In this document: positions 4,441-20,877 of the stretch, piece by piece | Position numbering within the stretch: the first letter of the stretch is position 1 | How the letters are laid out: every line of letters starts with the position of its first letter | Source of the DNA: a virus | Reading direction: 5' to 3' (one strand) | IMG/VR virus record: IMGVR_UViG_3300044643_002837 | Location: 1 to 20,877 of that record | Length of the DNA stretch: 20,877 nt | Position numbers and translations under genes: made by a program | Notes under the pieces: generated by a model | Databases searched by the model: none | What the model was told of the DNA's origin: nothing | The model's input: only the letters and a program-made list of their open reading frames with translations

Positions 4441-5778
4441 TTATTCGGTTCTCTTTGATTCTACAACTTTAAAATCAGGCCCTGCATATGGTTTTGAGCA
4501 AAATATTTCATTTCTATATGTATTTAATAGCTTCATATGCCTTACAATAGTTATATACCACCTGCCAAGAAGTATTTGATCACCTTTTGAAGAATCATCT
4601 TTTGCTTTAACTATATCTGTAAATACTCCAGACGATCTTCCTGTATCACCTATAACGTTAAAATTTAATTGCTGATTAAACAGGGTGAGATTAGTAATTG
4701 TATCAGCAGTAGCGATATTTACACTATCTCTATATGAAAACGGAAGCCTATATAGTTTAAACTCACTCGCAACTTTAATATCTGTTAAGTTAGCGTATGG
4801 TTTTGGAGTGCCGCCGACAAGCTTAAACACACTAATGAACTTTTCCGTCCATTTTTCACGTAACGCTTTTATTTGAACCTTAGCAGTGTTAAACGATCCT
4901 AGGATATGATCATATGACGTAATGAGACTGTTCATAAAATAAGCATTTGTGACAGATGTACCAGGTACAGTAGCATTAATACTTACAATATTATTAATAT
5001 ATGTTTTAAATTCTCCTCCTGCAGTTGGATTGTTTGGATTTGATTTTTGATCTGTAACTAATTCGCCAGAATGAAACGTTTCGTATACATTTTTATCATT
5101 ACTTGCAAATGTGCGACTAAGAGGTGTTAAGCTATACTTTTTTGTAGAGGGTGACCATCTTAAAAACGCTTTAACAGGTAGACCGTCATCAAGATAGTAA
5201 TAATGATGTAAAAGATAATATATTATATCTAAGTAACGATACGACATTGATGGTATTATATGCGTTGGTAAAGAATCTATAATAAAGTCACCAGATTCCC
5301 AATTACCTGTGTCAATATCAAACTTAAATTCATCTTGTAAAATAGTTTTAATGATATCACCTACTTTACCGCGATATCTACGACCATACGGAAATACCTC
5401 TCGTAGCAATACTTCGTCTTGATGCTCAAAAAAGTATGTTTTGCGATTTTTAGCTTGTGTGGAATCGTCAATAAGATTCTCCTCTCTGACTATTGTAAAG
5501 GTAAACTCAAGCTTTTTACCTTCATCGGCTTCTGGTTGAAGCATAATTTCAATTTTATCTGTACCATCACCTCGTAAGATAAATTTACCCTCGATGCCAT
5601 TATACGGGTTGGTCAAAGTTATATAACCGTTAGCAAACGGTGAAAATATATTATCATTAATTAAAAGACTTAAGACAGCCGAGTCGTTAAACTCAAACTC
5701 ACCAATTTCGTTAGATACCTTATATTTATATTTAAATCTAACTCCATTTAATAATGTAGTATTAGAAGTGTCTGCCAT
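4441..5778 (-). CDS. Baseplate hub protein (gp27-like), 445 aa
   Basis: A 445-residue protein with the layout of gp27-type hub proteins, which form the trimeric ring joining the tail tube to the central spike. The first 130 residues are beta-rich with a 'LLINDNIFSPFANGYITLTNPYNG' style strand series broken here as LLINDNIFSPFANG and YITLTNPYNG, followed by FILRGDGTDKIEIMLQP, matching the tube-like barrel of these proteins. Next comes a helical KVGDIIKTILQDEF, then YRYLDIIYYLLHHYYYLDDG and a LRWSPSTKKYSLTPLSR stretch typical of the second barrel. T4 gp27 is 391 aa. The start overlaps the end of the gp53-like gene by 17 bases in another frame, so the two are translationally linked. No SD or promoter of its own. 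Fold-level resemblance and gene order carry the call. Confidence 0.55.
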   Translation of the reverse strand: MADTSNTTLLNGVRFKYKYKVSNEIGEFEFNDSAVLSLLINDNIFSPFANGYITLTNPYNGIEGKFILRGDGTDKIEIMLQPEADEGKKLEFTFTIVREENLIDDSTQAKNRKTYFFEHQDEVLLREVFPYGRRYRGKVGDIIKTILQDEFKFDIDTGNWESGDFIIDSLPTHIIPSMSYRYLDIIYYLLHHYYYLDDGLPVKAFLRWSPSTKKYSLTPLSRTFASNDKNVYETFHSGELVTDQKSNPNNPTAGGEFKTYINNIVSINATVPGTSVTNAYFMNSLITSYDHILGSFNTAKVQIKALREKWTEKFISVFKLVGGTPKPYANLTDIKVASEFKLYRLPFSYRDSVNIATADTITNLTLFNQQLNFNVIGDTGRSSGVFTDIVKAKDDSSKGDQILLGRWYITIVRHMKLLNTYRNEIFCSKPYAGPDFKVVESKRTE

Positions 5779-6163
5779 TATAGATAGTATTTTTGGTTAT
5801 TTCAGTAAATATCGTTTCAAGAAAAGCTGGTTTAATGTATTTTAACTCTGTATTGCCTGGTACTGTAAATATATTTGTACCAATTACACTTTTGTTAATT
5901 AAATAAATTAACCACCAGAGAGATATATCTGTATATATATTATATGATACTATCGTAAGTGGTAGGCTTGAAGCAGTAGTATAAGTATCAAGGAACTGCG
6001 AATCTATATTAGTCGGGAACGCAACTTTTCGTAATATGTTATATAAGTAGAATGTTTTATTATCTACATCAACATCAAAAACCTTAAAGATGCGCTCGTA
6101 CCTCCCAAGCCCAAGGTGTTCGAGATCACCTATATTATTTTGATATTCACCGAGCGTTTTCAT
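5762..6163 (-). CDS. gp53: Baseplate wedge protein (gp53-like), 133 aa
   Basis: A 133-residue protein resembling T4 gp53, which joins the wedges at the inner baseplate. The N-terminal half carries YERIFKVFDVDVDNKTFYLY and NILRKVAFP. The C-terminal half, PLTIVSYNIYTDISLWWLIY and then IFTVPGNTELKYIKP, has the LysM-like 'YTIV.Y..Y.....WW.I...N....P..G..L.I' shape characteristic of the family. It is shorter than T4 gp53 (196 aa), lacking an extended middle section. Its ATG overlaps the TGA of the gp48/54-like gene (ATGA) and its stop lies inside the hub gene, so three baseplate genes overlap in a row and are probably translated in a coupled way. Confidence 0.7.
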   Translation of the reverse strand: MKTLGEYQNNIGDLEHLGLGRYERIFKVFDVDVDNKTFYLYNILRKVAFPTNIDSQFLDTYTTASSLPLTIVSYNIYTDISLWWLIYLINKSVIGTNIFTVPGNTELKYIKPAFLETIFTEITKNTIYNGRHF

Positions 6164-6918
6164 TGACTTGATATATATTTACTTGCAAAATTGTTTGGCT
6201 CGGTGTAGAGTGAAGTAAAAGTAAGACCTACACGATACCCCTCTGGTATAACTTTACCCTTTCTATACTCTCTACGACCAATTAAATTAATATTTACCGC
6301 TGCCGTAGCCCATTTTATGAATCTATAACCTGGAACGGTAACTTCCCATAAAACCGGCGGTGTACTGGTAAGATTACTACCTCTTTCGAATCTATTCTCT
6401 GTTATTAGTTTCTTCACCAAGCTATAGTTTTTTTCTATATCTCCCTCATTAATGGTATTAATTAACGTAAATTCTATACCTACCGCTCCTTCATCGACAT
6501 TATATTGATAGTATTTTGGCGGTTCAAAAAGTGCACCTGGCTTACCTGCAAAAGCACCTGCTGCTTGCCCAAAAGTAGTTAACCCTGTTTCAATAAGTTG
6601 TTTACCTGTACCAATATAGGATTCACCAGCGATCTGTGATCCGTTGGTTGATCCTACATATGTATCGCCCCAGCTATTACTAAAACTACGCACCTCATCT
6701 GTAAAAAACGGGAATACCCACTCATCTGCTAGTTCACCATCATGTAATTTATCATAATACTCATTGCCTGAGGAGCCCCCAACAGCAATATAAGCTTGAC
6801 CTGCTTCAAATATTCTGTTTTGAGTATTTTTAAATGTACTTGCGTATATACGAGGAGCATCAACTCGACCCTGTTTACCAATGGTCGTCCATGTATAATC
6901 GCTGACTATATCTTCCAT
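6160..6918 (-). CDS. Baseplate tail-tube initiator (gp48/gp54-like), 252 aa
   Basis: A 252-residue protein. After a variable N-terminal half with DEWVFPFFTDEVRSFSNSWG (about residues 64-83), a conserved-looking C-terminal half contains YYQYNVDEGAVGIEFTLINT, then NYSLVKKLITENR, PPVLWEVTVPGYRFIKWA and NINLIGRREYRKGK, ending in GYRVGLTFTSLYTEPNN. The order 'text-book' for gp48-type proteins is a beta strand set, a helix of about twelve residues, then '.Y.V.IPG.R...WA', and that is what is seen. In T4, gp48 and gp54 cap the hub and start tube polymerisation. The neighbours (tape-measure candidate before, gp53-like after) agree. Which of 48 or 54 it represents cannot be decided. A degenerate late octamer lies in front. 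Confidence 0.5.
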   Translation of the reverse strand: MEDIVSDYTWTTIGKQGRVDAPRIYASTFKNTQNRIFEAGQAYIAVGGSSGNEYYDKLHDGELADEWVFPFFTDEVRSFSNSWGDTYVGSTNGSQIAGESYIGTGKQLIETGLTTFGQAAGAFAGKPGALFEPPKYYQYNVDEGAVGIEFTLINTINEGDIEKNYSLVKKLITENRFERGSNLTSTPPVLWEVTVPGYRFIKWATAAVNINLIGRREYRKGKVIPEGYRVGLTFTSLYTEPNNFASKYISSQ

Positions 6919-6932: not shown

Positions 6933-8699
6933 CTATAACGTGTGATTTAATGTATAAGGCGAGCTATGCAACAATGATCTACTGCTTTGACGATCAGTAC
7001 TAAAAGCATTATTAAAAGCAGCTAGGTTTGTTTGTGAGCCTGAATCTTGTGATTTAGAAATAATTGCGCCTGGCTGTTTTTGTGATATGTCAAGTTGCCG
7101 TTTTGCTGTAGTAAGTAACTCAGATAAAATACTATTCTGAGCTGCTATTATTTTATTTTGATCATCTAAATTGAGTTGCATACCTTTATCAGCTTGCATA
7201 GCTTTAGATATTAACTGCGGCCCTTCAACTTGTGGTAGGACTTTAACTTCAGCTGGGTTAACAGCTATGTTATTTACAATAGTAGGTTGTGCTGCAATTA
7301 CAGCTGCTACAGGCGCTATTCTTTCAACTGCTGTTTTTTGTTCACTAACAGATGGTTTAGCTAATACGTTAGCTTGATTTGCGAGTGTTGGTGGTTTAAC
7401 TTCCTGCTGACCAAGAGGTTGAGAGCTCGGAGTCTGTTTTATACTTGGCGCTCCTGTTTGATTGAGTTTTTCTTCTGAAATAATCGAGCTTTCTCTTGAT
7501 CTAAAATCAAGAGGTATTAAGACACCATCCTTTTTAATAGCTCCTGCTTTTTTTTCATTGCGAAGAAAAGAGAGGCGCTCTTCTTCTGTATCCAATTTGC
7601 CTGAACCGTCTAAATCGTATTTTTTAATAGTTTCTTTATATGATTTAAATCTAGCTTCAGCAGCTTTTAGATTCTTTCCCGATTCAACTGCTCTGGATGT
7701 TGACTCAATAGCTTCAGATACAGCTACCCCAACAGATGTAATTGTTTTGATTGGGCTAAATAGCGCCTCATTTAATGTTTCAAAGAAATTCTTTCTAAAA
7801 TCTAAACCTTCAGCTGCTTTCGATAGCTCTGCTCTACCTTCTTTTGAAGAAAGTAAATATGCAGACTCTGCAGTATCTAATGCTAGACCAAGCATCGCCA
7901 TTCCTTTACCGAGTGCCTTGCCTGCGCTACCTATACCTTTACCTACACCCCTTGTCGGACGCCTTGGAGCTTTTGTCGCGCGACTCGGTGTGCGAGATCT
8001 TAAAGTAGGCTTCTTTGGGGTGCCTGGCTTTTGACTTCTACTTCTAGGTGTACTTAGCTTCTTTAATATGCTTGGCTTACGGGTTCTACTTCTAGGTGTA
8101 CTTGGCTTCTTTGGTGTACCTGGCTTCCGACCTCTGCGACTAGGTGTACTTGGCTTCTTTGGTGTACCTGGCTTCCGACCTTTGCGACTAGGTGTACTTG
8201 GTTTGCGACCTCTTGTGGTTAAGGGCCGACCTGAAAATATACGGCGAGCAAGATCGCCAATAGTGCTGCCTATATTAGATGTTACTGTTTCTAATAAACT
8301 TGATACTAGGTCTTTCTTTTTTTCTTGCAGCTTTTCACCTACAGTTTTTTTAAATGCTGTACTGACTATACCATCTTTAATTTTTCTTGAAGTTATAATT
8401 GCACCAGGCTTTATATCGGGTTGCTTTTTTGAATTAAAATCGTAGAAAGCTTTTGCTAACCATAAACCAGTATCATACGTTCTATTTCTTTCAATATTGT
8501 TGAGAATCGGTGATAGTCGAGGCCTTCTATTGAAAGTAGACTCGGCTGACGGTACAATATTCTTCGAAACAAGACTATCACCTTGCGGTACACCCGTAGG
8601 CTCATTTAACCCCCCTACATGCTCGCGGACGTGATCAAGAAACAAGCTTGCAAGATTGTGTAAATCTTGGATAGCTGGTGTTTGTTGGTTGTAAGGCAC
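6933..8699 (-). CDS. Tape-measure-position protein with basic H1-like repeats and an EF-hand loop, 588 aa
   Basis: A 588-residue protein placed between the hub-assembly genes and the gp48/54-like gene, the T4 position of tape measure gp29 (590 aa). Residues 1-150 are mixed and partly helical. Residues 158-250 are a Pro/Lys/Arg/Thr-rich stretch of 16-residue repeats (PSTPSRKGRKPGTPKK type), resembling the S/TPKK motifs of histone H1 tails. A glycine-zipper-like hydrophobic helix follows (about 252-282), as often seen in tape measures. At 362-373 DLDGSGKLDTEE is a canonical EF-hand calcium loop (D1, D3, S5, G6, L8, D9, E12). The C-terminal part is Gln/Ala/Pro-rich. The start is GTG at 8699: it gives the long frame and stands five bases from the late octamer. 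The tape-measure role is inferred from position, length and helix; sequence identity to gp29 is not claimed. Confidence 0.6.
   Translation of the reverse strand: MPYNQQTPAIQDLHNLASLFLDHVREHVGGLNEPTGVPQGDSLVSKNIVPSAESTFNRRPRLSPILNNIERNRTYDTGLWLAKAFYDFNSKKQPDIKPGAIITSRKIKDGIVSTAFKKTVGEKLQEKKKDLVSSLLETVTSNIGSTIGDLARRIFSGRPLTTRGRKPSTPSRKGRKPGTPKKPSTPSRRGRKPGTPKKPSTPRSRTRKPSILKKLSTPRSRSQKPGTPKKPTLRSRTPSRATKAPRRPTRGVGKGIGSAGKALGKGMAMLGLALDTAESAYLLSSKEGRAELSKAAEGLDFRKNFFETLNEALFSPIKTITSVGVAVSEAIESTSRAVESGKNLKAAEARFKSYKETIKKYDLDGSGKLDTEEERLSFLRNEKKAGAIKKDGVLIPLDFRSRESSIISEEKLNQTGAPSIKQTPSSQPLGQQEVKPPTLANQANVLAKPSVSEQKTAVERIAPVAAVIAAQPTIVNNIAVNPAEVKVLPQVEGPQLISKAMQADKGMQLNLDDQNKIIAAQNSILSELLTTAKRQLDISQKQPGAIISKSQDSGSQTNLAAFNNAFSTDRQSSRSLLHSSPYTLNHTL
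7997..8210. repeat. 48-bp tandem repeats encoding a basic Pro/Lys repeat
   Basis: The marker TAGGTGTA recurs at 8045, 8093, 8141 and 8189, exactly 48 bases apart, with the two middle units nearly identical over their full length and the outer ones diverged. Each unit encodes 16 residues on the reverse strand, keeping the reading frame. The array lies wholly inside the 588-residue gene and fits replication slippage or recombination. Confidence 0.85.
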
Positions 8700-8704
8700 A
8701 TTAT

Positions 8705-8712
8705 TATTTATT
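8705..8712 (-). promoter_or_regulatory. T4-type late promoter, AATAAATA
   Basis: AATAAATA on the reverse strand, then ATAAT and the GTG start at 8699. A competing ATG two bases upstream (8701) would give spacing three and only a 27-residue frame, so the promoter position supports the GTG. The octamer overlaps the stop codon of the upstream 245-residue gene. Confidence 0.7.
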
Positions 8713-9445
8713 CAACATCAAAGAAGTCGATATCAATTTCTACAACGATATCATCAACCGTAAGAATCTCTCGCTCTGCTGCTCTTACTTCTTCAATATA
8801 GTCAATTATTTTCTTATTAAGAGAGAGTGGTAGACTTTCTATTATATCTATCTTTTCTTGCGTTTTTAAATTGATATAGTCTAAGACTATATCATCGAAT
8901 GAGACCTGCTTAATATACTTTATTATTTCATATAAGTATATACTACCTAGGTTTTTTGTGTGGTTATCACTGCCATTACGCTTTATTTCTTCTTCTAGCT
9001 TTTTCACCGCGGCACTTTCTTGCGCTAGTGTAGGTATACCTAATTTTACCTCAATTTTATTATGTGTAACCATACGCTCATCATCAATACTATGATTGTA
9101 GGTATTAAGTCTTTCTATAATTGTATTTAAATTTATCTTCCGGTCCCCATCAATATAATTGCTACCAAGAGCATTAGTTCTTAACGCAATAGCTAAAGGC
9201 ACTTTATCATATAGTTTTAGCTCAGTATCATCAACAGATTGTGTTAGAATTTCGTTTAAAATTCTCGTAAAGGATATAGCACCTACTACACCATCTGCAG
9301 CACTCGAGATAATTTCTTTTTGCTGCTTTAAATTAAGTACTTTTACCTTAATGGCCTTACCTTTAGATGGTAAAAACACATTAATTGTTTCACTGCTACC
9401 GTCGTTAATTTTTTTCAAAAACGCTTCAACACTCGATTCAGACAT
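8708..9445 (-). CDS. Baseplate hub assembly-type protein (gp26/gp51-like), 245 aa
   Basis: A 245-residue protein with an N-terminal beta region (ETINVFLPSKGKAIKVKVLN) and a helical remainder ending in an acidic tail. The C-terminal part has EKIDIIESLPLSLNKKIIDYI, which parallels the following gene product (ERVLVLEALPPVVYTKIKTYI), so the two are probably distant paralogues. Proteins with this design are the T4 baseplate hub-assembly type (gp26, gp51), helper proteins needed for the hub and not always retained in the virion. The position just before the tape-measure candidate matches T4 (51-27-28-29 region). The start is fixed by an exact TATAAATA five bases upstream. The family call is from pattern and context. 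Confidence 0.5.
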   Translation of the reverse strand: MSESSVEAFLKKINDGSSETINVFLPSKGKAIKVKVLNLKQQKEIISSAADGVVGAISFTRILNEILTQSVDDTELKLYDKVPLAIALRTNALGSNYIDGDRKINLNTIIERLNTYNHSIDDERMVTHNKIEVKLGIPTLAQESAAVKKLEEEIKRNGSDNHTKNLGSIYLYEIIKYIKQVSFDDIVLDYINLKTQEKIDIIESLPLSLNKKIIDYIEEVRAAEREILTVDDIVVEIDIDFFDVE

Positions 9446-9450
9446 ACGTG

Positions 9451-9458
9451 TATTTATA
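9451..9458 (-). promoter_or_regulatory. T4-type late promoter, TATAAATA
   Basis: Exact TATAAATA on the reverse strand, then CACGT and the ATG at 9445. It overlaps the TAA stop of the 266-residue gene upstream, so promoter, stop codon and next start are packed in 16 bases. Confidence 0.85.
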
Positions 9459-10254
9459 TATTAGATCCAATATTGCTACCTGTTCCACTATTTCGTTGTG
9501 TTGATATTTCCTGTATGTATGCAGTAATGTCACGTATTGTAGATTTTAATAATATAGAGCTACCAATTTTTGGAGATAGATATGTTACAATATCCCTACA
9601 AGCGTGCACATTATAGTCGCAATACAGGCTTTTTAATAAGCTACTTGGGGTATCGCTAAAAAAATCAACAATAATTGGATGTATTCCAAGCTCTTTTTTA
9701 CCTTTAAATAAGACCATCTCAGCACTAGTATTTTTTATATAGGTTTTAATTTTTGTATATACTACTGGTGGTAGAGCTTCAAGAACTAAAACTCTCTCTT
9801 GAGGTGATAATTTTTTATAGTTAATTGAAATAGTATCAATAGTAATAGAGTTTATTATGCTATCGTATAAGTCATGTACTACAACCTCATCATTTATAAT
9901 AAACTCTGAAGGCGCATCCAGCAACAAGCATATGTTATCTACAATGATCTCCTGTTGAAAGTCAGTAACTTTATTAAGTTCGTCAAGCAGCGATGCAATG
10001 TTTATTTTGACAGTACTATTATCACTAGCAACGAGTGTAATAGTGTGATCAATAAATAGCTCCCGTGCCCTTAATAGCACGTAAAACTTATCTATAACAG
10101 ATAATTCTCCCAAACAAAAGAAATCCTCCAGGTAATTAACTATATCAATGCAACTGCCATCTTGTATAAGATGTGAAATATCTAAAATTTGCTCAAAAGT
10201 TAATTTTTTAATTTTAAATCTTTTTTTTGAGTACGGTAGAGCTGTAATAAGCAT
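9454..10254 (-). CDS. Baseplate hub assembly-type protein (gp26/gp51-like paralogue), 266 aa
   Basis: A 266-residue helical protein starting MLITALPYSKKRFKIKKLTF. Opening with 'LP.SKK..KIK.LTFEQ' strands and then helices is typical of T4-like hub-assembly proteins. The stretch SPQERVLVLEALPPVVYTKI aligns by eye with TQEKIDIIESLPLSLNKKII of its downstream neighbour. Its C-terminus is a short Gly/Ser/Asn-rich tail with the duplicated GSNI. Unlike most neighbours it has neither a late octamer nor an SD; 16 bases separate it from the stop of the tube-like gene upstream, so it probably depends on read-through from 10876-10883. The exact counterpart in T4 cannot be stated. Confidence 0.45.
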   Translation of the reverse strand: MLITALPYSKKRFKIKKLTFEQILDISHLIQDGSCIDIVNYLEDFFCLGELSVIDKFYVLLRARELFIDHTITLVASDNSTVKINIASLLDELNKVTDFQQEIIVDNICLLLDAPSEFIINDEVVVHDLYDSIINSITIDTISINYKKLSPQERVLVLEALPPVVYTKIKTYIKNTSAEMVLFKGKKELGIHPIIVDFFSDTPSSLLKSLYCDYNVHACRDIVTYLSPKIGSSILLKSTIRDITAYIQEISTQRNSGTGSNIGSNI

Positions 10255-10270
10255 TGCTTAAAATAATTAA

Positions 10271-10870
10271 CTATTGTACATTATATCTACTATACGAGAA
10301 AGCTACAGACTTTATTATAAAGTCTATATCACCATAAGAAAGGTTATAGCCTTCAACATTAACCGGGAAAGCATCATAAAAAGTATACTTTTTGCGCGTA
10401 GAACCGTCTTTTAAGTATTCAGTCACTACAATTGTTGATCTCAACTTACCCCCTAATAGCCCTTTAGTCCCTATAGCTATTACCCAGGGTCTAAATAATG
10501 ATGTCTCTATATCTTCACCCGTTTCTAAAAAATTTATAGAAACGGTACGTGACAGAAAGTCTGTTCGACTTGTAACACCATAACCTGGCATGAATCCACC
10601 ACGATTGTCTTGACCTAAAATAGTAGTTTCGTACGCTTCAGTAGGTATTGTTACTTCCTGAGCAACTAATATTTCACCTTCACTACCCAACCACCTGCTA
10701 ATATCCTTAACGCCATACTCCCAGTTAACATCAGCACTTGCAAGACCTGCCTGTATATCTCCTATTATACCACTGTTAAGCAACTGAACAGACCATAATT
10801 GAGGTAATGGCAGAGAGAATCCTTTATCATTTGAGAATTTTGCAATAAACGTATCAATCTTTGAAGCCAT
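10271..10870 (-). CDS. Tail-tube-like protein (gp19 superfamily), 199 aa
   Basis: A 199-residue, beta-rich protein with the gp19-type layout: QEVTIPTEAYET strand in the middle, the loop region GGFMPGYG, then TVSINFLETGEDIETSLFRP, a conserved WVIAIGTKGLLGG, and the C-terminal strand pair KYTFYDAFPVNVEGYNLSYG ending in VAFSYSRYNV. The 'F..AFP..V....LSY....... ...FSY..Y' ending is the common signature of tail-tube monomers. It lies downstream of sheath and main tube, separated from them by a strong terminator and provided with its own late promoter, so its dose may be set separately. It may form a special ring such as a tube-baseplate or tube-neck adaptor; that is inference. Confidence 0.65.
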   Translation of the reverse strand: MASKIDTFIAKFSNDKGFSLPLPQLWSVQLLNSGIIGDIQAGLASADVNWEYGVKDISRWLGSEGEILVAQEVTIPTEAYETTILGQDNRGGFMPGYGVTSRTDFLSRTVSINFLETGEDIETSLFRPWVIAIGTKGLLGGKLRSTIVVTEYLKDGSTRKKYTFYDAFPVNVEGYNLSYGDIDFIIKSVAFSYSRYNVQ

Positions 10871-10943: not shown

Positions 10944-11477
10944 TTAAGCAAAATTTTCATAATAATGATACGAGAAGGTTACCGGGAAGGTAACAACATC
11001 GCCAGTACCATCTGCAATATTATGTGTAATAGCTCCAATATCACGTATTGAGGCACCAATAAGCTTTATCGTTTGTGTTTCGTTGAACTGATTATCAAGA
11101 ACACTAAGAGTAATTACATCACCATTACCCGGCATGCCGATATCACCACTAGTTGTTTCATTATTAAATATACTACGTGAAATTCCTTCAAGTTTAGTAC
11201 GGAGAGAAGCACTTTCATCGTGATAGAATTCAATAGAATAGCTCTCTGAACCTGGGTAAGTTGATTTACCAGGTATATTAAAAGCTTGACCACTATAATT
11301 CACTACTTTATTTTCAATATTTCTACCTGGTAGTGTTGCAGATCGTGCATAAATTAGATCTGTATCACCTACCAGGCTTTGATTTAATATTGAAATGTTA
11401 GTGACGCGAAATAGGAAATCACGCGCAAACTGCTTGCTAAGCGCTTGCGTCATAAACTGGTTAATTGTTGTTGCCAT
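10944..11477 (-). CDS. gp19: Tail tube protein (gp19)
   Basis: A 177-residue protein that best fits the major tail tube monomer, which stacks as hexamers inside the sheath and forms the DNA channel. T4 gp19 is 163 aa. It begins MATTINQFMTQALSKQFARD with the amphipathic N-terminal segment, then DFLFRVTNI, IYARSATLPGRNIENK (the family's 'ATLPGR' strand) and VVNYSGQAFNIPGKSTYPGS, and ends VTFPVTFSYHYYENFA. It directly follows the sheath gene, the T4 order 18-19. An AATAAATA promoter five bases before the ATG and a strong terminator 20 bases past the stop make it a self-contained, highly expressible unit. Of three tube-like genes here this is the preferred candidate for the main tube. Confidence 0.8.
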   Translation of the reverse strand: MATTINQFMTQALSKQFARDFLFRVTNISILNQSLVGDTDLIYARSATLPGRNIENKVVNYSGQAFNIPGKSTYPGSESYSIEFYHDESASLRTKLEGISRSIFNNETTSGDIGMPGNGDVITLSVLDNQFNETQTIKLIGASIRDIGAITHNIADGTGDVVTFPVTFSYHYYENFA

Positions 11478-14328: not shown

Positions 14329-14913
14329 TTAAAAAGATATTATCTCTGTATGTAATTGCGAGTATACAAAAACAAATCCACTGACTAGCTCGTTATCCGC
14401 CTGATAGTTGTAATCTATACCGTCAACTGATGTAGGAAAAGCTTTCTTATAGGTAAACTTTATTCTTTTATTGTTATACTCATCCAAGCCGTATATAGTA
14501 ATATCTGTTTGATAGTCACTAAAATCCTCATCTACAACGATGTTTTTTGCGTTATATACACCTTTCTTTTCATCATGAAGCAAGTTTAACCATTGATATA
14601 TCACCCAATAATTGCTATATTGATTGTCAATAGTAAATTTAACATTAACAGGCGGGTAAGAGTTTTTGGAATTGGATGATATGTAAAAAGTGCTGCCAGA
14701 ATACCTATTTTCAACTGCTGGTACGGTTATTTCTGGAACTACTGTACCGAAAATTGAAAATTGAACAGAATCAGGTATTATAACCTCACTTACTTGATCA
14801 CTTTCTATTTTTTTCGAAAAAGTCTTGAGAATAGGCGGTACATCAAATACCATTAAAAACTTATCGGTACGAGATTTATTGAGAATTGATTGATGTAATG
14901 CGTTTATTGCCAT
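14329..14913 (-). CDS. Tail-tube-like protein (gp19 superfamily), 194 aa
   Basis: A 194-residue tube-like protein. It shows SIFGTVVPEITVPAVENRYSG (split as SIFGTVVPEITVPAVE and NRYSG), then VNVKFTIDNQYSNYWVIYQW, DITIYGLDEYN and the signature FTYKKAFPTSVDGIDYNY before FVFVYSQLH. The 'FTYK.AFPTSV..I.Y' ending is the tail-tube superfamily hallmark, here of a subtype that I associate with cyanophage-like myoviruses. It starts immediately after the terminase stop (TAA then ATG, no gap) and has no promoter of its own, so it is expressed with the terminase, not with the sheath. That suggests low-dose use, for example as a tail terminus or adaptor ring; this is inference. Confidence 0.65.
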   Translation of the reverse strand: MAINALHQSILNKSRTDKFLMVFDVPPILKTFSKKIESDQVSEVIIPDSVQFSIFGTVVPEITVPAVENRYSGSTFYISSNSKNSYPPVNVKFTIDNQYSNYWVIYQWLNLLHDEKKGVYNAKNIVVDEDFSDYQTDITIYGLDEYNNKRIKFTYKKAFPTSVDGIDYNYQADNELVSGFVFVYSQLHTEIISF

Positions 14914-17717: not shown

Positions 17718-18089
17718 ATGATAACTTTTAGAGAATACCTGATTGAGTATGCTTCCAAGCAAAACAGTCAGTTCTTTGGTATAGCTAAACTAAGATCAGG
17801 TATTAACGGTAAGTTACTAGACGATCCACATAACAGAAAGCATAAAAACCCTTTCAAGAAAGAATACTCTCACAAACATCCAGTTATTGATAGTATATGT
17901 AATGGAAAATCTAACAATGTTCAGATAGCGGGTCAGCCATTACTATCTATTTTAACACTTTATAGTACGCAGTTTGAGCCTGGTGTTAAAGCACTAGGAA
18001 ATTCTGATGTTGAAGTAGAAATGTATGAAGATGAAGAAGGTATACAAAGAGGGATTTTAAGAAATAGAAAGAAGAGCAATGGCCTGTAG
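17718..18089 (+). CDS. Small late protein of unknown function, 123 aa
   Basis: A 123-residue protein beginning MITFREYLIEYASKQN, an opening of the 'ITFREYL.E' sort shared by many small T4-like marine phage proteins. The middle is basic (DDPHNRKHKNPFKKEYSHKH), then IAGQPLLSILTLYSTQFEPG, then an acidic stretch VEVEMYEDEEG and a basic end. There are no membrane segments and only one cysteine. The start at 17718 is chosen because of the exact late promoter five bases upstream; a longer frame would begin within the preceding terminator. Its stop overlaps the gp14-like gene by 11 bases, so the two are coupled and it may take part in neck or head completion. That is context only. Confidence 0.65.
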   Translation: MITFREYLIEYASKQNSQFFGIAKLRSGINGKLLDDPHNRKHKNPFKKEYSHKHPVIDSICNGKSNNVQIAGQPLLSILTLYSTQFEPGVKALGNSDVEVEMYEDEEGIQRGILRNRKKSNGL

Positions 18090-19026
18090 TTCAAATAGAT
18101 CTCAATGTAATGCTGAGGGTATATTTGCTGCTGTTGCAAATCCTGCTTGTGGTCAGTTTTTCAACCCCGGTAACTTCCAAGCAGAGCAGCTCATATATGA
18201 TACAAGCTTTGGTGACTTAATTAATAATTTTGGTATCCCTGTAGATTATTATATTAATACGTTTAACCTTTCAGCAGCTGATACTCTATATGGCGAGCAA
18301 CCAACCGCTGTATTTTACGGTCCTATAACAGTAATGATGTATGTAGAGCTTACCGAGAATGCTATTAATTTATCTAAATTTGGCTTTGCCTCTGATGATG
18401 AGCTAACCGGGTATGTACATATTCGCTCGTTTGAAAATTTAATAAAGGGTAGAGATTTTTATATTAAGACCGCAAACAATGAGTTTATAAAATACGAAGA
18501 TTATATAACAACTGTTCAGACAGAATCTCAAGACGATATTCTCACACAGTTATTTGTTCAAATCGTTACAGAAAACGCTATCACGGATGAATTCTACCTT
18601 ATAGGGGGAGATTACGCAGCGGAAAATAGATACACTAACAATGGTCAGTCTGTTGAGCCAAAATCAGGCGATTTAATTCAGATATCACCTCTAGGTTGTG
18701 ATAGACCTAATGGTCGCGGTGCTAAAATATTTGAAGTTACAGAGAGAACAGATCAAGATATTGCTACGATTAATCCGCTGCTTGGACACTATGTATATAG
18801 GCTTAGAGCTAAGAGATACGAGCATTCTTTCGAACCAGGTGCACCAAAAGAGCTACAAAATCAACAAGTATTCGAAAATTCAGCTTCAGGAAAGCTTTTA
18901 TCCGATATTGCTGGCGAGACGCCGTCTGAGAGTAAGTCTTACCCTGGTGATATTGATACAGACTCTAAGACGAGAGTGTTAGATATGTCTGTCAACAATA
19001 CTGATATATACGGTAGTTATTATTAG
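18079..19026 (+). CDS. gp14: Neck protein (gp14-like head completion)
   Basis: A 315-residue protein resembling gp14 of T4-like phages, which with gp13 seals the portal after packaging and joins head to tail. Diagnostic stretches are QAEQLIYDTSFGDLINNFGI, then VDYYINTFNLSAADTLYGEQ, VMMYVELTE, LSKFGFASDDELTGYVHIRS, the turn EPKSGDLIQI and KIFEVTERT, then LGHYVYRLRAKRYEHS. This follows the gp14 order of an N-terminal helix, 'D..Y.PR....D.LFGE', 'F.LSKFGL...D...F...R..F' and 'EGDLI..P....LFEI.....'. It is longer than T4 gp14 (256 aa) because of an N-terminal Cys-containing extension and a Ser/Asp-rich tail. It overlaps the preceding small gene by 11 bases. No gp13 counterpart is recognised next to it. 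Confidence 0.75.
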   Translation: MACSSNRSQCNAEGIFAAVANPACGQFFNPGNFQAEQLIYDTSFGDLINNFGIPVDYYINTFNLSAADTLYGEQPTAVFYGPITVMMYVELTENAINLSKFGFASDDELTGYVHIRSFENLIKGRDFYIKTANNEFIKYEDYITTVQTESQDDILTQLFVQIVTENAITDEFYLIGGDYAAENRYTNNGQSVEPKSGDLIQISPLGCDRPNGRGAKIFEVTERTDQDIATINPLLGHYVYRLRAKRYEHSFEPGAPKELQNQQVFENSASGKLLSDIAGETPSESKSYPGDIDTDSKTRVLDMSVNNTDIYGSYY

Positions 19027-19737: not shown

Positions 19738-20877
19738 TTAATTTGTAGTTACTGTTGCGCCTCTAGCAGTAAGAGCATCTCTAGCTGTAATACCATCACC
19801 TGTAGGAGCTGCATTAGTACCCCCGTTAATAGTTAGCACCCTACCCGTTCCCCATGTTGTTGTATTATTAGTACCATCTAGTGTAGATAGGAGTAACATA
19901 AGGCTATTAACACTAGTTACATCTAATCTAAGATTCGTTAGTATAATGTTACCATTAACCACCTTAAGAGTATCAGGAGTGCCTAGTACTAGAGATGATA
20001 AATTAGGAGCAGTAGAAGATAAGAATTGAATATTACTACCATAACTAGACATCGAAGGAAAACTAAGTGCTCTGAGAGCTGAGAGACCTATACCACTAAC
20101 TGTAGTACCGATAGTATCTAGTGAAGGGAAACTCATTGCAGATAAGCTTGATAATCTTGTAGGAGTAAAACTAGTACCTATAGATCTTAAAACAGGGAAG
20201 TCTATATCTGTTAAACTGCGTAAATCTGTAGGAGTAAACGCACTTCCAACTCTTGTTAATGAAGAAAAACTCATACTGCTTAAAGCTGCCATAGAACTAG
20301 GACTAAAGTCACTACCCACAGTTGCTAGAGCAGGAAAGCTCATACTGTTTAAAGCGTTCATATTAGTAGGATTAAAGCTAGTACCTACAGTTGCTAGAGC
20401 AGGAAAGCTCATACTGTTTAAAGCGTTCATACTACCTGGACTAAAGCCAGTACCTACAGTTGCTAGAGCAGGAAAGCTCATACTGTTTAAAGCTGGCATA
20501 CCACCTGGAATAAAGCTACTACCTACAGTTGCTAGAGCAGGAAAGGTCATACTGCTTAAAGCGTTCATATTATTAGGATTAAAGATACTACCTACAGTTG
20601 CTAGAGCAGGAAAGCTTATACTGTTTAAAGCTGTCATAAAAATAGGATTAAAGCTAGTACCTACAGTTGCTAGAGCAGGAAAGGTCATACTGCTTAAAGC
20701 TGGCAAAGAAGTAGGATTAAAGCTAGTACCTACAGTTGCTAGAGCAGGAAAGGTCATACTGCTTAAAGCTGGCAAAGAAGTAGGATTAAAGTTAGCACCT
20801 ACAGTTGCTAGAGCAGGAAAGCTTATACTGTTTAAAGCGTTCATAGTAGTAGGATTAAAGTTAGCACCTACAGTTGC
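19738..20877 (-). CDS. Leucine-rich-repeat (BspA-like) adhesin or tail fibre (partial, N-terminus beyond right edge)
   Basis: The reading frame enters from the right edge and runs 379 codons to a TAA; an internal ATG at 20844 is only part of a repeat, not the start. The visible part consists of 23-residue repeats of the type FPALATVGTSFNPTSLPALS, a BspA/treponemal-type leucine-rich repeat, going from nearly identical copies at the right to diverged ones (FPVLRSIGTSFTPTRLSSLS). After the repeats a cap region (LSSLVLGTPDTLKVVNGNII) is followed by the common end module of such proteins, VNSLMLLLSTLDG, then INGGTNAAPTGDGITARDAL and GATVTTN. Such repeats form a curved solenoid for binding surface ligands. 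With the two following genes it forms a receptor-binding-type cassette; host attachment is inferred. Confidence 0.75.
   Translation of the reverse strand, partial: ATVGANFNPTTMNALNSISFPALATVGANFNPTSLPALSSMTFPALATVGTSFNPTSLPALSSMTFPALATVGTSFNPIFMTALNSISFPALATVGSIFNPNNMNALSSMTFPALATVGSSFIPGGMPALNSMSFPALATVGTGFSPGSMNALNSMSFPALATVGTSFNPTNMNALNSMSFPALATVGSDFSPSSMAALSSMSFSSLTRVGSAFTPTDLRSLTDIDFPVLRSIGTSFTPTRLSSLSAMSFPSLDTIGTTVSGIGLSALRALSFPSMSSYGSNIQFLSSTAPNLSSLVLGTPDTLKVVNGNIILTNLRLDVTSVNSLMLLLSTLDGTNNTTTWGTGRVLTINGGTNAAPTGDGITARDALTARGATVTTN
20285..20877. repeat. Exact-period 69-bp tandem repeat array within the LRR gene
   Basis: The sequence GTTGCTAGAG starts at 20321, 20390, 20459, 20528, 20597, 20666, 20735, 20804 and the window's last copy begins at 20873 (cut by the edge): a strict 69-base period, eight complete steps. 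The block CAGTTGCTAGAGCAGGAAAG is unchanged in nearly all copies, while a short segment of each unit differs. Each unit encodes 23 residues, so gain or loss of units keeps the frame. The array continues beyond the window. Confidence 0.95.

Follow-up and report, generated by a model that had tools for sequence, protein, structure and literature searches.

The tail-gene locus

The sequence analysed here, hereafter the window, comprises 20,877 bases and is a virus record of IMG/VR, a fragment of a genome. Its minus strand carries, in this order, genes for a terminase, a tail tube protein, a sheath protein, two tube-like proteins and two gp26-like proteins, then the ORF that is the subject of this study, a gene in the gp48 position and a gp53-like gene. 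The relatives keep the gene order seen around this ORF, which lies among the following genes:

5762..6163, minus strand: gp53-like baseplate wedge protein (PHROG baseplate wedge, E 0.0018; 38-54% identity in relatives)
6160..6918, minus strand: gp48-position protein, tail-tube cap candidate (conserved next gene in relatives, 27-52% identity)
6933..8699, minus strand: gene of the very probable tape measure protein, 588 aa, GTG start, stop codon at 6933-6935 (ORF, position, positional orthologs with alike ends)
8708..9445, minus strand: gp26-like (PF12322) protein, possible tape measure chaperone (Pfam T4_baseplate, E 9e-8, above cut-off)
9454..10254, minus strand: second, diverged gp26-like protein (PF12322, E 0.008, below cut-off)

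An earlier note on this DNA had placed a tape measure candidate, of the length and in the position of T4 gp29, at 6933-8699. These coordinates proved exact, and the strand, which it had left unstated, is minus (the ORF runs from 8699 to 6933); a gene on the plus strand of this interval is ruled out, that strand being full of stops. Both likenesses to gp29 were also found. The product is 588 aa long against 590 aa for T4 gp29, and the ORF stands between the two gp26-like genes and the tail-cap-like gene, in the slot before gp48 of a contractile tail operon. The T4 neighbours gp27 and gp28, however, are replaced at this locus by the gp26-like genes, and the basic array and the EF-hand described below set the product apart from gp29, the tape measure and hub protein of T4. 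Profile comparison detected no homology of the gp48-position protein to T4 gp48; this protein gave no matches as a single query, whereas an alignment of gp48-position proteins does match the relatives.

The two adjoining gp26-like (PF12322) genes precede the tape measure gene, where other phages place tape measure chaperones, and the pair is kept in relatives. Three gp19-like tail tube genes are present in the one tail operon (10271-10870, 10944-11477 and 14329-14913). Flanking the tail genes, at 1264-2620 and 18079-19026, the minus strand encodes a clamp loader and a dUTPase, and the plus strand a head-closure (Hc2) protein. At 19738-20844, on the minus strand, a 368-aa ORF consists largely of a 69-bp (23-aa) leucine-rich-like tandem repeat in about nine copies, running to the contig end; its C-terminal part matches phrog_34853, a family of unknown function.

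A probable tape measure by position and family

Relatives of the locus were gathered by scans with the terminase, then with an alignment of the gp26-like protein, and then with an alignment of the gp48-position protein. The same slot yielded a non-redundant set of 61 full-length proteins, the window's included, ranging from 351 to 883 aa with a median of 635. In each related locus the fast-evolving protein is always the one in this slot. Moreover, the slot proteins (60 besides that of the window, from uncultured relatives) have alike N- and C-termini and a hypervariable, repeat-prone middle. One slot ORF, at L036 17662-21192, encodes 1176 aa, is far longer than the others and contains repeated internal blocks. 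In the window protein the two alike ends are:

8370..8699, minus strand: N-terminal conserved region, residues 1-110, presumed head-side end (ortholog identity; helix 68-91)
6936..7169, minus strand: C-terminal conserved region, residues 511-588, ending SSPYTLNHTL, presumed baseplate-side end (helix 511-541, pLDDT 83-88)

Identity to the nearest positional orthologs is 25-48% across the first 120 residues, and helix 68-91 is confident in the structure model (pLDDT 81-88). At the other end, a motif of the type R..Y..SPYS[LIM] occurs in 38 of the 61 orthologs, against a rate of 0.00016 (0.016%) in shuffled ends.

When 40 members were scanned, phrog_58 was matched by 17 and others matched further tail length tape measure families, some of these matches being possibly compositional; the PHROG scan of the window protein itself gave no match. 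The family profile matched the 80alpha tape measure weakly in the PDB (E 9e-4). Direct searches of annotated phages returned no match to the window protein, nor to its relative in L154, and none came from IMG/VR when the window protein was used as a single sequence. The resemblance to gp29 did not extend to the sequence either, since the remote-homology comparison of a 40-sequence profile with gp29 (hhalign) gave a probability of 0.2%. The structure model built from the 40-sequence alignment was poor overall (mean pLDDT 53), and Foldseek found no significant match to the full-length model. A lysin domain was considered and rejected, as the PHROG and Pfam scans of the window protein contained none.

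Tandem repeats cover 3.9% of tape-measure bases and 0.28% of flanking bases in the related loci, an enrichment in line with the duplication of units through which tape measures are known to evolve (PMC3271669). The repeat period in the related genes (L005, L015, L029, L062, L104, L126, L141, L143, L149 and others) is mostly 33 or 66 bp, corresponding to 11 or 22 aa. Other tape measures show the same, and the 48-bp unit of the window is the odd one. The tape measures of TP901-1 and of the Belcaid et al. set have 11-aa tandem units (PMC5099701, PMC3271669). As in these proteins, length evolves here by gain and loss of tandem repeats, with conserved N- and C-termini; unlike the helical 11-aa units, that of the window has 16 aa and is Pro-rich and basic, and the window protein has no strong hydrophobic region.

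Position, alike ends, variable length and the PHROG matches of the orthologs thus give good support to the tape measure claim, and the ORF is very probably the tape measure gene of an uncultured, T4-like phage with a contractile tail. This identity rests on position and on the orthologs, because the window protein has neither a PHROG match nor a gp29 profile match. We therefore class it as a tape measure on its position and on how its family behaves, and not as a sequence member of the gp29 family.

Among the relatives, the tape measure of L154 (IMG/VR contig 3300037189_032895; identical in L155) is 31% identical to the window protein over residues 252-542. Its neighbours are the same, and here too a basic array is followed by a Gly/Ala-rich segment and then by an EF-hand, but the protein is 669 aa long, its array is of another sequence with 12-bp repeats, and its loop reads DVNKDGVLDENE.

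The Pro/Lys/Arg array

7950..8228, minus strand: Pro/Lys/Arg array, residues 158-250 (composition; no predicted secondary structure)
8023..8201, minus strand: 48-bp tandem repeat (16-aa unit), 3.7 copies, building most of the array (Tandem Repeats Finder, 85% matches)

The array of TPKK and TPSR units reported in the earlier note at residues 158-250 was borne out. Its 93 residues include 34 Lys/Arg and 19 Pro and not a single Asp/Glu, and six units follow the pattern (S/T)PX(K/R), namely TPKK at 179, 195 and 227 and TPSR at 169, 185 and 237 (TPRS, at 201 and 217, falls outside it). In the other 60 orthologs there are two such units at most. Separate lineages (the window, L154, L143/L152 and L130) nevertheless have basic arrays in a middle position, unrelated in sequence. 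The window tape measure has a net charge of +45, whereas all the other tail proteins of the window that were tested are negative by net protein charge; the orthologs are mostly positive, with a range from -1 to +65. The lumens of phage tail tubes are mostly negative (PMC8718954, PMC12886913).

On the repeat structure, the TPKK motifs are a young tandem duplication and the array has recently expanded. As far as these comparisons go, the conserved property of the array is its positive charge and not the histone-like motif, because basic arrays recur in other lineages while the (S/T)PX(K/R) motif does not.

The Gly/Ala-rich segment and hydrophobicity

7800..7949, minus strand: residues 251-300, Gly/Ala-rich and mildly hydrophobic, with the helix that follows (42% identity to L154 over residues 252-400)

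A glycine-zipper-like hydrophobic helix had been proposed here. Residues 251-285 are indeed rich in Gly and Ala, but the hydrophobicity here is low: over 19 residues the Kyte-Doolittle mean rises to no more than 1.22 within residues 246-345 and to 1.42 in the whole protein (residues 461-479), the latter value being the third lowest of the 61 orthologs. On this scale, the hydrophobicity of segment 251-300 is low for a transmembrane helix.

Basic-array tape measures were defined by a P+K+R fraction that reaches 0.4 or more over 60 residues, and all tape measures were scored for a 19-residue stretch with a Kyte-Doolittle mean of 1.6 or more. No stretch reaching 1.6 was found in 5 of the 6 basic-array tape measures, compared to 7 of the 55 others (non-redundant; Fisher p 0.0007), and the P+K+R fraction is anticorrelated with hydrophobicity across tape measures (Spearman rho -0.38, p 0.002), p-values that are overstated because the rows are related (L143 and L152 belong together). 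Basic-array tape measures would thus tend to be without a strong transmembrane-like segment, an unexpected pattern which is a lead only, because the thresholds were picked after seeing the data and the rows are related.

The EF-hand

7581..7616, minus strand: putative EF-hand calcium loop DLDGSGKLDTEE, residues 362-373 (motif; aligned with DVNKDGVLDENE in L154)
7548..7670, minus strand: putative EF-hand helix-loop-helix, residues 344-384 (model helices; sub-threshold Pfam EF-hand_1 match)

An EF-hand was defined as a 12-residue loop with ligands at positions 1, 3, 5, 9 and 12, Gly at 6 and an aliphatic residue at 8. The loop DLDGSGKLDTEE lies exactly at residues 362-373, as the earlier note had it, and matches both the PS00018-type and the strict EF patterns, the latter arising in 0.035% of shuffles of the window protein. 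The Pfam EF-hand_1 match is below the curated cut-off (16.8 vs 25.4 bits, E 0.005) and reaches 21.0 bits with the isolated segment. In the model from the 40-sequence alignment, helices 344-361 and 372-384 surround the loop with a pLDDT of about 70; AlphaFold, given two sequences of the EF module, produced a poor model (pLDDT 40). EF-hands usually pair, but the window protein contains only this one. The lytic transglycosylase Slt35 of E. coli is also a single EF-hand protein, and envelope-related. It shares one canonical EF-hand loop with the window protein, in which, however, no lysozyme-like domain was found.

Two strict EF loops were observed in the 61 proteins where 0.027 would be expected, and both are at the same aligned place. 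The loops of the window and L154 are identical at 5 of 12 residues (D1, G6, L8, D9, E12), and the ligand positions that differ, 3 and 5, both hold permitted ligands. As L154 and L155 are identical proteins, one independent lineage only shares the EF-hand; all other orthologs of the 61-protein set are without the loop, and none was found in the 525 aa of the partial ORF of L041, the closest partly sequenced relative. In the tree of the gp26-like protein, the window pairs with L041 (93/94) and L154 is unresolved in the same nine-row clade, which it shares with relatives that have no EF-hand. The earlier note had made its reading depend on close relatives keeping the EF-hand residues: L154, a distant relative, does keep the site at the aligned place, but most relatives, including L041, are without it. 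The EF module is either old and repeatedly replaced, or it has moved, the tree being compatible with both. Searched with the module, bacterial and archaeal genomes yielded no relative, IMG/VR yielded contigs of the L154/L155 type only, and PDB sequences gave matches to EF-hand proteins at no more than chance level. In the part of the literature covered, we came upon no tape measure described as having an EF-hand.

That the loop recurs at the aligned place in L154, that permitted ligands are kept and that two loops are seen against 0.027 expected support a real, selected single calcium site.

Discussion

The best explanation of these observations, and one that we consider probable, is a tape measure with anchored ends, a positive spacer array facing the acidic tube wall and a real single calcium site. 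The conserved N-terminal end would be anchored at the head side and the C-terminal end in the baseplate, a two-end anchoring drawn from TP901-1 (PMC5099701) and JBD30 (PMC11445458), and the fast-evolving middle would set tail length. The array would be a tandemly expanded, disordered and strongly positive spacer, whose likely partner would be the acidic inner wall of the tube and not DNA. The EF-hand is predicted to bind calcium at a single site, on the strength of its motif and conservation. It would most likely be empty during assembly in the low-calcium cytoplasm and take up Ca2+ when calcium is encountered outside or in the periplasm, be it by the particle or by the protein after its ejection; this filling would stabilise the helix-loop-helix. 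A calcium switch during delivery is in this sense plausible.

The array could instead be a neutral product of repeat expansion acting as a length filler, with the EF loop a structural remnant devoid of any calcium role. Tandem repeats are indeed common throughout the related tape measures, and the EF loop is missing from most orthologs. However, unrelated basic sequences recur mid-protein in the separate lineages named above, the 93 positions of the array have remained free of acidic residues, and the EF ligands are kept where adjoining residues differ. We hold this explanation to be unlikely.

In other phages, a hydrophobic segment of the tape measure is thought to act on the membrane (PMC5099701, PMC11948020, PMC11445458), and the basic stretch may stand in for it. 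The array would then replace the membrane-inserting segment, a Pro/Arg-rich, cell-penetrating-like stretch acting on the anionic inner membrane during delivery. This would agree with the deficit of hydrophobic stretches among basic-array tape measures (5/6 vs 7/55 of the others), but that comparison uses post hoc thresholds and related rows, and proteins of similar length may simply swap one composition for another. We give this possibility rather little credence.

Histone H1 tails carry (S/T)PKK repeats, and the earlier note had read the array as a DNA-binding element of this kind. The two do share a short motif and a basic, Pro-rich composition; however, the window motif is unconserved and is the product of a local tandem duplication. 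On the DNA-binding reading the array would contact DNA, either at its end within the tail or as it trails the protein into the cell, a role for which its strong positive charge and its six (S/T)PX(K/R) units would be suited; moreover, the tape measure of phage 812 is a trimer whose N-termini are in contact with the DNA end inside the tube (PMC12886913). Yet 157 residues separate the array from the N-terminus, the motif generated by the 48-bp repeat is absent from the orthologs, the sequence of the L154 array is another one, and the closed gp15 iris, or ring, of T4 was taken to keep DNA out of the tail (PMC3004832). The histone-H1 reading is unsupported, because TPKK stems from the 48-bp repeat and is unconserved while positive charge recurs; we find DNA binding improbable, and a disordered spacer acting by its charge in an acidic tube is the simpler reading.

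A bolder idea, in our eyes a long shot, is that this tape-measure lineage gave up the hydrophobic membrane-channel segment, and that the Pro/Lys/Arg stretch, with behind it a helix-loop-helix that calcium would cause to fold only beyond the cytoplasm, would drive or hold its exit through the envelope. Finally, it is very improbable that the protein is a baseplate hub or another virion protein lying by chance in the gp29 slot: it matches neither gp29 nor any PHROG directly in sequence and, the contig being a fragment, a tape measure could lie elsewhere, but the same-slot orthologs match several tape-measure PHROGs and have the length variation and the repeats of tape measures.

The tape measure is the first protein through the tail, and a calcium site inside one would bear on how these proteins cross the envelope: it would offer a trigger open to testing, linked to the change in calcium from the cell to the outside. 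A Pro-rich, non-helical segment also challenges the usual rule of 0.15 nm per residue: by our own estimate, the 93 residues of the array would span about 14 nm as a helix or up to about 29 nm when extended, so that tail length would report the state of this segment.
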